Assembly: GCA_030266395.1 (NCBI GenBank)
Contig: JAJDHX010000011.1
Span: 1-37,545 of the forward strand
DNA from: Selenomonadales bacterium OttesenSCG-928-I06
GTDB lineage: Bacteria > Bacillota > Negativicutes > Sporomusales > Sporomusaceae
Direction: 5' to 3'
DNA: 37,545 nt
Below, piece by piece: positions 13,359-22,726 of the stretch. The translations under genes were made by a program, and so were the position numbers. Each line of letters opens with the position of its first letter. Position 1 is the stretch's first letter. Below the pieces are notes generated by a model. The model was not told where the DNA came from, searched no databases, and saw nothing but the letters and a program-made list of their open reading frames with translations.

Positions 13359-13874
13359 GGCTGCACCTCCGTTTTTCCGTATAAATTAAAATGCCTTCCA
13401 AACATTGTCTGGAAGGCAGAAAAATACACTAAAATATTATCTACCGTCTCAGTCAACATTGATCTAAGCGGAATATATCATTTTAATTTTTTCAAAATCA
13501 TTGGTTAAATAAAGTATGATGTCATATGACTATCATCTTGTCTAACACAATAATAATAACATAAAGTATTATTTCAACGCAAGTCGTTTTTTTCCACTTT
13601 TTGTATTAAGTATTAAAAACTCAGAAATTGGTAAATTCAGCCGACCATACAACTTCTTTTAAGATAATACAAAATATATCTTTTCTTTGCTCATTGACAT
13701 ACTATACATAGCCAAATTAACAGTTCCTGATTGAGCTTGTTAATTAATCACACTTAATATCATTTTCCCTACACAAATTCCCAAAAAATAAAACAGTTTC
13801 TTCTTTAACATACATTTATCTCCCCTCTGCACAAAAGAGGTACAGGTAAATATTCGCAGACATGAGGTGAAATT
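13359..13874. other. Intergenic control region between panG and the SLOG gene
   Basis: 516 bases without a convincing gene. It contains a hairpin close to panG (TGCCTTCCA 13392-13400 with TGGAAGGCA 13410-13418; minus-strand readout TTTTAATTT follows, so it is at best a weak attenuator). It also contains a near-palindrome ATGAT-GTCATATGAC-T-ATCAT (13516-13536) whose centre is a perfect 10-bp palindrome, a candidate operator. TTGACA at 13694-13699 on the plus strand lacks a good -10 element at 17 bases. I found no riboswitch core that I recognise. Confidence 0.6.
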
Positions 13875-15636: not shown

Positions 15637-16116
15637 TCAAACACTAATTTTTACTTCCCGCAGGAAGTCTACGAATTTTATCAACCTAATGCCATACTCT
15701 TCACAGACGTTGGGGATTTTCACAGGTTGTCCATCGCCCGCTTTTGTTTCGTCCGAAACAAGGGTACAGTCCTTTTGCTTTGCCAATGCAATAACAAAGG
15801 GGTCTGCATTATTAGATTTTCTAGTTCCCGTCACCAATCCTGGATATTTTCGCAAAATATCACGCACTATCAATTGCACATCTACTCCGCTCGTCACAAA
15901 TGCTGCACTCCTAATCTTAACCCAATTAACCAAGTCATCATTACCTATAGATATTTCGTCAAGTACCTCGCCGCAAGAAATAACAATACCGCTATCAATA
16001 GTGTTGGCCATTTTTGTCCATAGACTACCAAACACATCAAGTGGATGACGCCTCTGCATATTGATGAAAACATTAGTGTCTAGAACATATTTTGCATTGC
16101 TCAAGAGAAGCACCAC
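15637..16116 (-). CDS. PIN-domain toxin (DUF4411-like)
   Basis: 159 residues. The acidic PIN active-site residues are recognisable: VLDTNVFI near the N-terminus, the Glu in CGEVLDEI, the Asp in NNADPFVIALA and the Asp/Glu in LVSDE. PIN proteins of this kind are Mg-dependent ribonucleases. It directly follows and overlaps an Xre-ImmA/IrrE gene, the arrangement known for DUF4411 toxin-antitoxin pairs. Start uncertain: GTG codons at 16116 and 16113, or a TTG at 16104 that overlaps the upstream TGA and has a better-placed SD (AGGTGG). Confidence 0.85.
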   Translation of the reverse strand: MVLLLSNAKYVLDTNVFINMQRRHPLDVFGSLWTKMANTIDSGIVISCGEVLDEISIGNDDLVNWVKIRSAAFVTSGVDVQLIVRDILRKYPGLVTGTRKSNNADPFVIALAKQKDCTLVSDETKAGDGQPVKIPNVCEEYGIRLIKFVDFLREVKISV

Positions 16117-17288
16117 CTTTCCACCTTATCGAAATGCTGCACACGCAATCCCGATAAAAATTGAGATGCATCCCTCGGAGTGATAACCTCTTGAGTATAG
16201 GCATTCATAACGGTTTGGGCATAAAGTTTTCCTACTTGCGAACATATATTTGTACTTGGCGGCAAAAAGCCTCTTTTTTTGCTTTTTTGATTGCGTTGAT
16301 ATTGCTCGTACTCATTGTTGTATTGAGATAGTTTAGCATTATAAAAATCAAAAGTTATTTTACCAAGAGTAAGCAAACGCCCAATAATAACTTCACGGCT
16401 TACAGAAAATTTTCTAGCTGTTTTTCGGATGAAAACATCATCCAAATTGGATTGAGCAATCTTATTCCAGTGGCTATCATTCATTAAAGTATCTTGTGGC
16501 ACAAGGGCTTCGGCAGCAATTCGATTGCACCTAATCTCAATTTCAAATTGGCTCTGATGTTCTATGCTAAAAGTGTCACAAATCCCCGGTGTTCTTGTCA
16601 GAATATGTACAAATTCGTGTAGCAAAGTAAATATCCTTGCATTGTATTCATCTTTTCGGTTCACAACTATAATCGGAAAAACTGGATCATAAACAGACAT
16701 TCCACGCATAATACTCTTATCAATATTGCCGGCCTGAAAGACAAGAATACCAATCGAAGACAATGCTTCCCTATAGTAATTAAATGCCTCGTTACTGTCT
16801 TTAAATTTCTGCTGTTTTGTATAAGTGATTCCAAGTAATTGTCTTATTGTTTCAGCAATAGTAATATCTCTCACAGTTTCAGCATCCATGTACTCTTCAA
16901 AGCGAGGAAGCGGTGTATCCATTTCTGCATACAATTCTATCATCGCATCACGGCGCATGGAAATATCAATAAGTAGGTAATTAAGTTCTATAGAGTAATC
17001 AGACATTGCTTGATTGGCAAATGTCCTATAATCAGCATTTTTAGGAAGTTTAAATTTTTGAGGAGGGGTATCCAAAAAAAGCCAGGCATATGCTACCCTG
17101 ACTTTTTGTGCAAACTTTTTAGCTTGATTTATGGTGGGTAACTGCTCTCCCGATTCCCAGCTTTGGTATTGTTCAACTGTTACACCAATGGCCTTTGCCA
17201 CCAGCTCAACAGGCATACTTATTCGCTCTCGTGCCCAAATAAGAAGCTCTGGCGTTATTAGCGCATCGTTCCTTGGCATATTACCCAA
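16101..17288 (-). CDS. Xre-ImmA/IrrE metalloprotease, putative antitoxin
   Basis: 395 residues. An N-terminal helix-turn-helix (about residues 15-60: RERISMPVELVAKAIGVTVE ... SWESGEQLPTI) is followed by an ImmA/IrrE (COG2856) metallopeptidase domain with HEFVH at 224-228, the HExxH zinc motif, and a downstream EIEIRCNRIAAEALVP helix. The domain pair acts as a regulator that can be cleaved or can cleave a repressor; next to a PIN toxin it is most likely the antitoxin/regulator. The start is TTG at 17288 (SD GGAGG seven bases away) or ATG at 17279. It lies only 74 bases after frdB, with a half copy of repeat E between them and no clear promoter. Confidence 0.85.
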   Translation of the reverse strand: MGNMPRNDALITPELLIWARERISMPVELVAKAIGVTVEQYQSWESGEQLPTINQAKKFAQKVRVAYAWLFLDTPPQKFKLPKNADYRTFANQAMSDYSIELNYLLIDISMRRDAMIELYAEMDTPLPRFEEYMDAETVRDITIAETIRQLLGITYTKQQKFKDSNEAFNYYREALSSIGILVFQAGNIDKSIMRGMSVYDPVFPIIVVNRKDEYNARIFTLLHEFVHILTRTPGICDTFSIEHQSQFEIEIRCNRIAAEALVPQDTLMNDSHWNKIAQSNLDDVFIRKTARKFSVSREVIIGRLLTLGKITFDFYNAKLSQYNNEYEQYQRNQKSKKRGFLPPSTNICSQVGKLYAQTVMNAYTQEVITPRDASQFLSGLRVQHFDKVERWCFS

Positions 17289-20549: not shown

Positions 20550-20606
20550 TTAAATTAATAATTTCACTAAAGTCTCCAAAAAGACAAAACTAATTTTCAT
20601 CCCCTT

Positions 20607-20651
20607 AAAAAAAACCAAAAAACAAGCGAGTTCTTGGCGAAGCCCAAGAAC
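20607..20651 (-). terminator. Terminator-like hairpin A1 downstream of paaK
   Basis: On the minus strand GTTCTTGG, six-base loop, CCAAGAAC (arms at 20644-20651 and 20630-20637), then a T-rich run ending in eight T. It is part of the first tandem unit; the second unit has the same hairpin (20749-20770) with one G-T pair and a shorter T-run. Confidence 0.65.
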
Positions 20652-20826
20652 AGCCCGTAAAAATCAGCCACCAAGCCAAAAACCACAAAAAAATATCCAG
20701 ATACAAGAACCCTTTCAACCCTTTAAACAAACTCCCCAAAACAAGCGAGTTCTTGGCAAAGCTCAAGAACAGCCCGTAAAAATCAGCCACCAAGCCAAAA
20801 ACACACGAGAAGTGTCCAGATACAAG
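20621..20826. repeat. Tandem direct repeat, two 87-base units
   Basis: Units at 20621-20707 and 20740-20826 are offset by 119 bp. The first 63 bases differ at only a few positions. The last 12 bases (TCCAGATACAAG) are identical and lie at the same distance (75 bases) from the unit start. The 12 bases between are diverged. The second unit runs into full element E2, and the first ends where the E core begins, so the unit looks like a hairpin module plus the left arm of E, duplicated. Confidence 0.75.
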
Positions 20827-20929
20827 GCGGATTAAAAAATCCAGGACAGGCGCGTACTTGAGTACGTAACTGGTCTGGATTTTTTAACCAACGCAGTAGA
20901 TGGATGCTTATCGTGTGTTTTTTATCTAC
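20788..20929. repeat. Interspersed hairpin element E, full copy E2
   Basis: The outer stem is AAAAACACACGA (20797-20808) with TCGTGTG-T6 (20911-20923). The middle stem is AGTGTCCA (20811-20818) with TGGATGCT (two G-T pairs). The core is CAGATACAAGGCGG and CCAACGCAGTAG, identical to E1. The inner arm is AAAAAATCCAG (20834-20844) with CTGGATTTTTT (20875-20885). The apical CGTAC-TTGA-GTACG matches the apical CGTAC/GTACG of E1. The right end contains the paaK stop codon (20922-20924). Confidence 0.85.
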
Positions 20930-22214
20930 GGTTATCAATGACCCTTTTGGCTTTACCTTCACTCCGTTCAATACTTTGAGGTTCAACAAGCTTAACAATA
21001 GCTTTTACCCCAAGCACACCTTTAAGTCGCTCTTTAATCTCTGCTTCCAACTTAATCAACCTAGTCTGACTCTCTAAAAACAACTCTTCTGTCATCTCAA
21101 CCCTAACAGTCAAAATATCAAGATTATTTATTCTATCTACTACAAGCTGATAATGAGGTGCCAGAATTCCCATACCTAAAAGAACACTTTCCACTTGAGA
21201 CGGGAACATATTTACACCACGAATAATAAGCATATCATCAGATCTTGCCATTACCCTTTTCATCTTCAAAGTAGTCCTGCCACAAGGGCATTTATCTCTA
21301 TAAAGTCTAGTTAAATCTCTAGTTCTATAACGGATCATAGGCATAGCTTCTTTTGTTAAAGTAGTTATTACAAGCTCGCCCTCCTCGCCTTCTGGCAGAA
21401 CCTCGCCAGTCTCAGGATCTATTACCTCTAAATAAAAATGATCTTCCTGAATATGAAGCCCATTTTGCTCTGGACAATCACAAGAAACACCAGGTCCTAT
21501 AATCTCACTTAAGCCATAAATATCATATGTCTTAACCTTATATTGTCTTTCCAGTTCTCTTCTCATATCTTCTGACCAAGCCTCTGCCCCGCAGAAAACA
21601 GACTGTATATTCAACTCATCTATACTAATACCTTCTGCATCCATAGTCTCTCTTAGGAAAAGAGCATAAGAAGGAGTAGCAATAAAATGTGTTGTGCCAA
21701 AATCTTTCATAAGCATAATCTGTCTGGCAGTATTACCTGTAGAAGACGGAATAATAGTTGCACCAATCTTTTCAGCAGCAGACTGCATACCAAGACCACC
21801 TGTAAAAAGGCCGTATTTAACAGTCACCTGAAAAATCGACTCTTCACAAAGCCCTCCTGCCGCAAGCGAACGAGCAAGAACCTCTGCCCAAATATCAAGA
21901 TCATGTGCAGTATAAGCTACTGCTGTAGGTCTGCCGGTAGTTCCGCTTGAAGTATGAAACCTTGATAACTTCTTAATCGGCACAGCCAACATCCCATGCG
22001 GATATCTTTCTCTCATATTTTGTTTCGTAATAAAAGGCAGTTTACTAATATCAGCCTTAGATTTAATATCTTGTGGTGATATTTTATGTTCCTTCAAAAG
22101 CTCATTATAAAAAGGAACATTCTCATAAGTATATTTTACAACCTTAAGTAATCTTTCTTCCTGCAAAGACTCCATCTTAGAAGGATCCATAGTCTCATAT
22201 TTATTCCAAATCAC
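20922..22214 (-). CDS. paaK: Phenylacetate-CoA ligase family protein
   Basis: AMP-forming aryl-acid CoA ligase of 430 residues. The ATP-binding motif is SSGTTGRPTAVAYT. YDIYGLSEIIGPGVSCDC, MIRYRTRDLTRLY, CPCGRT and RSDDMLIIRGVNMFPSQVE are PaaK-family signatures. It activates phenylacetate or a related arylacetate (indoleacetate, hydroxyphenylacetate) to the CoA thioester; the exact substrate is not visible. The start is GTG 22214 with SD GGAGG seven bases upstream. No indolepyruvate oxidoreductase genes are adjacent. Transcription passes through a T-box leader with a Trp-like specifier, which ties this enzyme to amino-acid supply. The TAA stop is formed in the border of repeat E2. Confidence 0.93.
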   Translation of the reverse strand: MIWNKYETMDPSKMESLQEERLLKVVKYTYENVPFYNELLKEHKISPQDIKSKADISKLPFITKQNMRERYPHGMLAVPIKKLSRFHTSSGTTGRPTAVAYTAHDLDIWAEVLARSLAAGGLCEESIFQVTVKYGLFTGGLGMQSAAEKIGATIIPSSTGNTARQIMLMKDFGTTHFIATPSYALFLRETMDAEGISIDELNIQSVFCGAEAWSEDMRRELERQYKVKTYDIYGLSEIIGPGVSCDCPEQNGLHIQEDHFYLEVIDPETGEVLPEGEEGELVITTLTKEAMPMIRYRTRDLTRLYRDKCPCGRTTLKMKRVMARSDDMLIIRGVNMFPSQVESVLLGMGILAPHYQLVVDRINNLDILTVRVEMTEELFLESQTRLIKLEAEIKERLKGVLGVKAIVKLVEPQSIERSEGKAKRVIDNRR

Positions 22215-22334
22215 GATTTTGCCTCCTCAACCATTAATTTTTATATATAAAAGCTATCCAAATCAGCTCCACCATCGCCACTTAACTGACCCAATATTCA
22301 TATAAAATAACTCCTTTTTAAAGACTTTACCTAT

Positions 22335-22386
22335 CACCCAGCCAAAAACGCATTAGAAGTATGTAGATGCATGCTTACCATGCGAT
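22335..22386. repeat. Internally deleted copy of element E (E3)
   Basis: The outer stem CGCAT (22349-22353) pairs with ATGCG (22380-22384), and the inner stem AGTATG (22358-22363) pairs with CATGCT (22370-22375, one G-T). TAGAAGT on the left and GTAGATG...GCTTAYC on the right align with E1 and E2, but the CAGATACAAGGCGG core, inner arm and CCAACGC are missing. It also shares CACCCAGCC upstream with E1. It sits in the paaK leader between the T-box terminator and the SD. Confidence 0.7.
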
Positions 22387-22393
22387 TCAAACT

Positions 22394-22431
22394 AAAAAAA
22401 CCTCAATCCCAAAAACTTTTAAGGGACGAGG
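22394..22431 (-). terminator. T-box regulated terminator
   Basis: Minus strand CCTCGTCCC (22423-22431), loop, GGGATTGAGG (22401-22410), then seven T. Its 5' arm directly follows the T-box sequence, as expected for the terminator that competes with the antiterminator. Confidence 0.88.
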
Positions 22432-22690
22432 TTAAACTCGCGGTGCCACCCTGGTTGACCAAAATTAATTGATCCGGCTCAATAAAGTACGGAATCTTAA
22501 ACAAGACTCGATACTCATTTCTAAAATAACGGCAGAAAATCCCGGCAGCGCCTACCCCTTTTCAGGCTCAGACTGCATCTCACAGACCCATTCAATATAC
22601 CAAGTAATACTGATCTTACACTACCATCAGCTCGCTGAAATCCTTTTTGTATATTTACTATCTCTGATCATTGATTTTAAGATATAAATT
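22394..22690 (-). ncRNA. T-box leader, probably tryptophan-specific, controlling paaK
   Basis: The minus strand contains the T-box consensus AGGGTGGCACCGCG (22439-22452) and, just after, a terminator. Upstream is a Stem I: the distal part has GAGCTGATGGTAG and GATCAG. The specifier loop is closed by AATATAC/GTATATT above and CAGA/TCTG below, with AGTA on the 5' side and GAATGGG on the 3' side. Reading the usual GAA-NNN-purine layout gives the specifier UGG (Trp; 22588-22590). One base later would be GGG (Gly), which fits the layout less well. T-boxes sense uncharged tRNA and allow readthrough when the amino acid is short. Confidence 0.88.
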
Positions 22691-22696
22691 ACACTT

Positions 22697-22726
22697 AGTA
22701 TATCAATCATAACTTGTCATTGTCAA
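22697..22726 (-). promoter_or_regulatory. Promoter of the T-box leader/paaK
   Basis: Minus strand TTGACA (22721-22726), 18-base spacer, TATACT (22697-22702). It puts the transcript start near 22690, just before Stem I. Confidence 0.8.

Follow-up and report, generated by a model that had tools for sequence, protein, structure and literature searches.

The window (the whole 37,545-nucleotide stretch analysed here) contains a single T-box, which lies on the minus strand at 22680-22419 ahead of paaK1, a gene for a PaaK-type aryl(acetate)-CoA ligase of 430 residues (20922-22214, minus strand; GTG start, Shine-Dalgarno sequence GAGGAGG at 22222-22228). The leader matches the Rfam covariance model RF00230 end to end (114.7 bits, gathering score 93, E 7.4e-25, model positions 1-219 of 219); it is an ordinary T-box, and its membership of RF00230 is not in doubt. 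Upstream, a consensus scan scored a candidate sigma-70-type promoter at 11/12, a pattern match only (TTGACA-18-TATACT with TG before the -10 element, 22697-22726, minus strand). The antiterminator, AGGGUGGCACCGCG...CUCGUCCCU (22422-22452, minus strand), folds at -8.2 kcal/mol with the pairs expected from Rfam, and AGGGTGGCACCGCG occupies 22452-22439 on the same strand of the T-box region. The alternative structure is an intrinsic terminator (about 22394-22433, minus strand, -14.0 kcal/mol, with a run of seven T). Folding showed that the two have strands in common, AACCUCGUCCCU, and are mutually exclusive. The complete Trp-type T-box leader of the original prediction is thus present ahead of paaK.

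Alignment to the Rfam model places the specifier codon UGG (Trp) at 22590-22588 within GAA-UGG-G (22593-22587, minus strand), as had been predicted. The UGGC of the antiterminator bulge (22445-22448, minus strand) is complementary to the GCCA of tRNA-Trp. The tRNA-Trp of the window genome (CCA anticodon, contig C11) has the 3' end CCCCU-G-CCA, and UGGC therefore pairs with GCCA at four of four positions. Neither the specifier nor the bulge varies in an alignment of 11 sequences, comprising ten Trp T-boxes preceding paaK1 and the T-box of the window genome's trpB. A shifted register, which would make the specifier a Met (AUG) or a Gly (GGG) codon, is ruled out by the GAA context, this invariance and the match of UGGC to G73 of tRNA-Trp. 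For the trpX leader of Streptococcus suis, likewise a Trp T-box, mutational work has verified the UGG/UGGC combination (PMC9382623). On these sequence grounds, Trp-specific T-box control of paaK is firmly supported.

PaaK1 contains an AMP-binding domain (PF00501) and the PaaK C-terminal domain AMP-binding_C_2 (PF14535), both above cut-off. Its best named model, also the nearest equivalog family, is PaaK (TIGR02155), but the score of 514.3 bits does not reach the curated equivalog cut-off of 646.3; "PaaK-type aryl-CoA ligase" is therefore a safer name than "phenylacetate-CoA ligase". The closest solved chains are 4r1l, 2y27 and 2y4o (E 1e-119 to 1e-113), the first two of which are phenylacetate-CoA ligases. 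Residues ~132-147 and 208 are group-specific and differ in PaaK1 from those in other ligases.

The next genes downstream of paaK1 are sdhCAB. They have a promoter-like site of their own (20549-20520), suggesting that paaK1 is apparently the sole gene of the T-box unit. A position of iorAB directly 3' of paaK1 was rejected, as sdhCAB is found there instead. Between paaK1 and sdhC lie two 114-nt direct repeats and a 62-nt inverted repeat (20594-20826 and 20797-20922), members of a repeat family that occurs at many sites in the window genome and may explain its fragmented assembly. Two further features of the minus strand were observed. An HTH and ImmA/IrrE-type (M78) protein that resembles repressor/antitoxin families adjoins sdhB (16101-17288), and a pan motif (RF01749, 50.5 bits, 13440-13539) precedes a DUF2520/Rossmann gene and homologues of panB and panC.

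The interval between the terminator and paaK1

A dispersed-repeat copy (22331-22371, minus strand; about 80-95% identity to many genome loci by blastn) lies at the position of the relatives' trpP. Closer to paaK1 is the 12-codon ORF MNIGSVKWRWWS (22263-22301, minus strand), a short, Trp-rich (WRWW) reading frame between T-box and gene with the Shine-Dalgarno sequence AAGGAG upstream. In 5000 dinucleotide shuffles of this region, ATG ORFs containing three or more Trp codons appeared 106 times, four times together with a Shine-Dalgarno-like motif. The ORF was rejected as part of the dispersed repeat, because the repeat stops upstream (22331) and comparable matches are lacking for the ORF segment. 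At the position of MNIGSVKWRWWS the relatives carry trpP (compared genomes, none of the same genus), and (F/Y)RW is found near the N terminus of their TrpP. MNIGSVKWRWWS may be the decayed start of trpP, or it may encode a Trp leader peptide like that of the Bacillus subtilis at operon. Its stop codon is 34 nt from the Shine-Dalgarno sequence of paaK1, a spacing at which a stalled ribosome would not obviously block paaK1. A tandem sensor, in which the T-box would sense tRNA-Trp charging in transcription and MNIGSVKWRWWS would sense Trp supply in translation, both gating an indoleacetate-CoA ligase, is considered rather unlikely. If true, the at logic would have evolved a second time, independently, out of what is left of a deleted transporter gene.

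T-boxes ahead of ligases in relatives and in other ligase lineages

Comparison with ten other Negativicutes genomes showed a T-box (GAA-UGG followed by G or A, with UGGC), a TrpP-family gene (PF17099) and the closest ligase, in this order. Five of the genomes belong to family f1 (G001-G005), which includes Sporomusa malonica DSM 5090 (G005), and five to family f3 (G013, G020, G023, G025 and G027). Of the ten leaders, seven score above the Rfam gathering threshold; the remaining three, from G001, G003 and G023, were identified by their motif and by alignment to the others. The first gene after the T-box is trpP in all ten. The PaaK1 ligases form one clade (support 100/100), beside but separate from the PaaK2-ACT clade of Negativicutes. 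At three f3 loci another UGG T-box motif occurs, a few kb ahead of the trpP-paaK1 unit, and precedes genes whose products resemble, by eye, ATPases of ECF-type transporters and a CbiQ-like protein.

Other ligase lineages are also preceded by T-boxes. In the Sporomusa-family genomes G001, G003, G004 and G005, a T-box with UGGU and the specifier GAAG-UAC precedes a sodium/solute symporter gene and paaK3, the codon being read as Tyr with a one-base shift downstream relative to the Trp leaders, as in the Rfam register, with the discriminator bases as the only check. The tRNA-Tyr of G004 ends in ACCA, which fits the UGGU bulge. In some of the paaK3 loci (L156-L159 and L068, from Sporomusa-family genomes and G002), an ORF of about 35 residues precedes the symporter gene; in G002 the symporter gene is gone and only a short ORF is left, with the T-box motif and paaK3 retained. 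In three Sporomusa genomes (G010, G008 and G006; L164-L166) a T-box with AAA-UGG-A lies directly before iorA-iorB-paaK4. These leaders score 82-87 bits, below the gathering score, with E values of about 1e-16. A UGG T-box of 96.3 bits directly precedes paaK4 alone in G045 (L161). The bulge of the paaK4 T-boxes is UGGU, so that a G-U pair with G73 is required. The distant Negativicute G040 (L042/L065) has a T-box of 131 bits with UGGU, followed by a paaK2-ACT unit, iorA and iorB; its specifier, GAAG-UUC, is read as Phe in the same shifted register and with the same single check as the Tyr codons. A tRNA-Phe from Negativicutes ends in ACCA and fits UGGU. T-boxes near the paaK2-ACT genes of Sporomusa were not counted because they lie downstream of the ligase. 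None of the T-boxes found directly upstream of a ligase has a non-aromatic reading. The T-box-bearing ligase lineages are thus read, from their leader sequences, as sharing aromatic specificities: Trp, Tyr and Phe.

Trp genes of the window genome and the proposed role of paaK1

The window genome belongs to family f1 and to a Sporomusaceae-like Negativicute with a small genome; it is a 1.33-Mb draft, 72% complete, with seven T-box matches. One of these is a Trp T-box (UGG, UGGC) ahead of a stand-alone trpB (contig C18, 11963-13439; L049), beside which the ORFs are unlike trp genes. This arrangement suggests indole salvage. Searches for trpA, indole-glycerol-phosphate synthase (IGPS), chorismate-binding (TrpE-type) enzymes and TrpP found none in this genome, and because of its 72% completeness each absence is weak by itself. 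Within the limits of this draft, the predicted loss of trp biosynthesis genes agrees with the missing trpA, IGPS and chorismate-binding enzymes and does not extend to trpB. TrpA is present in every f1 relative that is at least 98% complete, and trpA is kept in most complete relatives, for which the indoleacetate-to-Trp route proposed below would be a second one.

The indolepyruvate:ferredoxin oxidoreductase (IOR) genes iorA and iorB are present on contig C28 of the window genome (729 bits, cut-off 650.9, and 269 bits, cut-off 230, respectively), and a second ligase gene, paaK2, adjoins an ACT-pair gene on contig C12. The original prediction proposed looking for iorAB behind the same leader. 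The iorAB of the window genome has no T-box match. Beyond this genome, the arrangement does occur, in the Sporomusa iorA-iorB-paaK4 operons with their UGG T-boxes; in G040 the T-box is likewise there, with UUC rather than UGG as the specifier. In G001 and G002, which are 98-99% complete and have the T-box-trpP-paaK1 unit, no IorA match better than 2e-25 was found; other OFOR-family proteins are present. In several f3 genomes, all IorA-like proteins fall short of the curated cut-off.

We consider it probable that paaK1 encodes an arylacetate-CoA ligase for Trp supply and is turned on by the T-box in response to uncharged tRNA-Trp. When Trp is short, uncharged tRNA-Trp would pair with UGG in Stem I and, via GCCA, with UGGC of the antiterminator, and RNA polymerase would then transcribe into paaK1 by standard transcription antitermination. 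PaaK1 would convert scavenged indole-3-acetate to indoleacetyl-CoA, IOR (encoded elsewhere in the window genome) would act in the carboxylating direction to give indolepyruvate, and an aminotransferase would yield Trp. In the reduced window genome this route would stand beside the lone TrpB (indole and serine) with its own Trp T-box, and the window unit would be a descendant of the T-box-trpP-paaK1 operon, minus trpP. The computational observations are the T-box with its conservation and its specificity for Trp, and a trpB behind a leader of the same kind; what PaaK1 acts on, which way IOR runs and how cells respond to Trp are inferred. The indoleacetate-to-Trp reading is a proposal with good comparative support. 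Its regulatory half stands, with the invariant UGG/UGGC and the match to the genome's own tRNA-Trp. The anabolic half through IOR is a putative route supported by comparison, and G001 and G002 without IorA speak against a strict IOR route. Also counted against the anabolic reading are the iorAB of the window genome without a T-box match, the low-scoring IorA-like proteins of several f3 genomes, the trpA of most complete relatives, the incompleteness of the window genome behind the gene absences, and the score of PaaK1 below the equivalog cut-off. In these two genomes another 2-oxoacid:ferredoxin oxidoreductase, or a different route, would be needed.

The constant place of trpP directly behind the T-box in all ten relatives could mean that the leader serves Trp uptake, with paaK1 as a passenger that has no role in Trp supply and was left behind when trpP was deleted in the window. 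This is quite unlikely, because paaK1 is retained behind trpP in two families, its link to the T-box outlives trpP in the window, and other PaaK lineages stand under aromatic T-boxes, some of them without a transporter (iorA-iorB-paaK4, and paaK-ACT with iorAB). The link between T-box and ligase outlasts the loss of trpP in the window and of the symporter in G002, and is thus counted for the anabolic reading. It is decidedly unlikely, in turn, that the activation of an aromatic acid by PaaK1 during Trp shortage serves some other end, such as vectorial uptake and trapping of an aryl acid or the formation of another aryl-CoA, without reductive carboxylation to an amino acid. The genomes G001 and G002 without IorA and the score of PaaK1 below the PaaK equivalog cut-off would fit such a purpose. 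However, the T-box operons of Sporomusa (UGG) and G040 (UUC) join ligase, IOR and aromatic amino acid, and the other OFOR-family proteins of G001 and G002 also argue against it. Phenylacetate degradation is the best-known context of PaaK, and paaK1 could accordingly be catabolic, with incidental T-box control. This is highly improbable for a gene whose leader turns on with uncharged tRNA-Trp, whose downstream neighbours are sdhCAB with their own promoter-like site and no degradation pathway, and whose control is conserved across two families, with parallels among other lineages of ligases.

T-box specifiers serve as built-in labels for gene purpose. Here the labels Trp (PaaK1 and PaaK4), Tyr (PaaK3) and Phe (one PaaK-ACT-IOR operon) fall on different lineages of a single enzyme family, whose usual annotation is that of a catabolic phenylacetate-CoA ligase. 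If the anabolic reading is right, many "phenylacetate degradation" annotations in anaerobic Firmicutes would represent biosynthesis or salvage, and aryl acids from other microbes would be amino-acid precursors traded in anaerobic communities. The incorporation of arylacetates into aromatic amino acids by anaerobes is an old observation, which would gain candidate genes and substrates.

Comparison with known systems

A literature search for a link between T-boxes and paaK, phenylacetate-CoA ligase, phenylacetate or IOR returned nothing relevant; a mention in the surveys of Gutierrez-Preciado 2009 and Vitreschak 2008 is possible. The RNA itself is of a known kind. What is new is its target, an arylacetate-CoA ligase, together with the recurrence of aromatic readings among several lineages of ligases.

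In the at (rtpA/yczA) operon of B. subtilis, a Trp T-box is followed by a short ORF with Trp codons and a Shine-Dalgarno sequence before the regulated gene. Papers on its leader peptide are cited in PMC11255114. The window shares with the at operon the Trp T-box and the short ORF, MNIGSVKWRWWS. However, the at operon regulates anti-TRAP, whereas the window ORF ends 34 nt from the paaK1 Shine-Dalgarno sequence and is possibly a trpP remnant. The Trp T-box of S. suis trpXYZ (PMC9382623) resembles that of the window in the Stem I UGG, the UGGC bulge, the attenuation by terminator and antiterminator and the connection to Trp acquisition. It controls a Trp ABC transporter, whereas the window T-box precedes an aryl-CoA ligase gene, joined in relatives by that of the TrpP transporter. 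The iorAB-paaK-ACT clusters of Geobacter, Clostridia and others likewise encode ligase and IOR together. These clusters have no T-box motif before the ligase; the PaaK1 genes do not lie beside iorAB and have no ACT gene. In Methanococcus maripaludis, aromatic amino acids are formed from aryl acids through IOR (Porat et al., as cited in PMC4162585), which, so far as described there, is the same pathway as proposed here, from aryl acid through IOR to the aromatic amino acid. That route is archaeal, whereas the one proposed for Negativicutes is deduced from RNA control and gene content.
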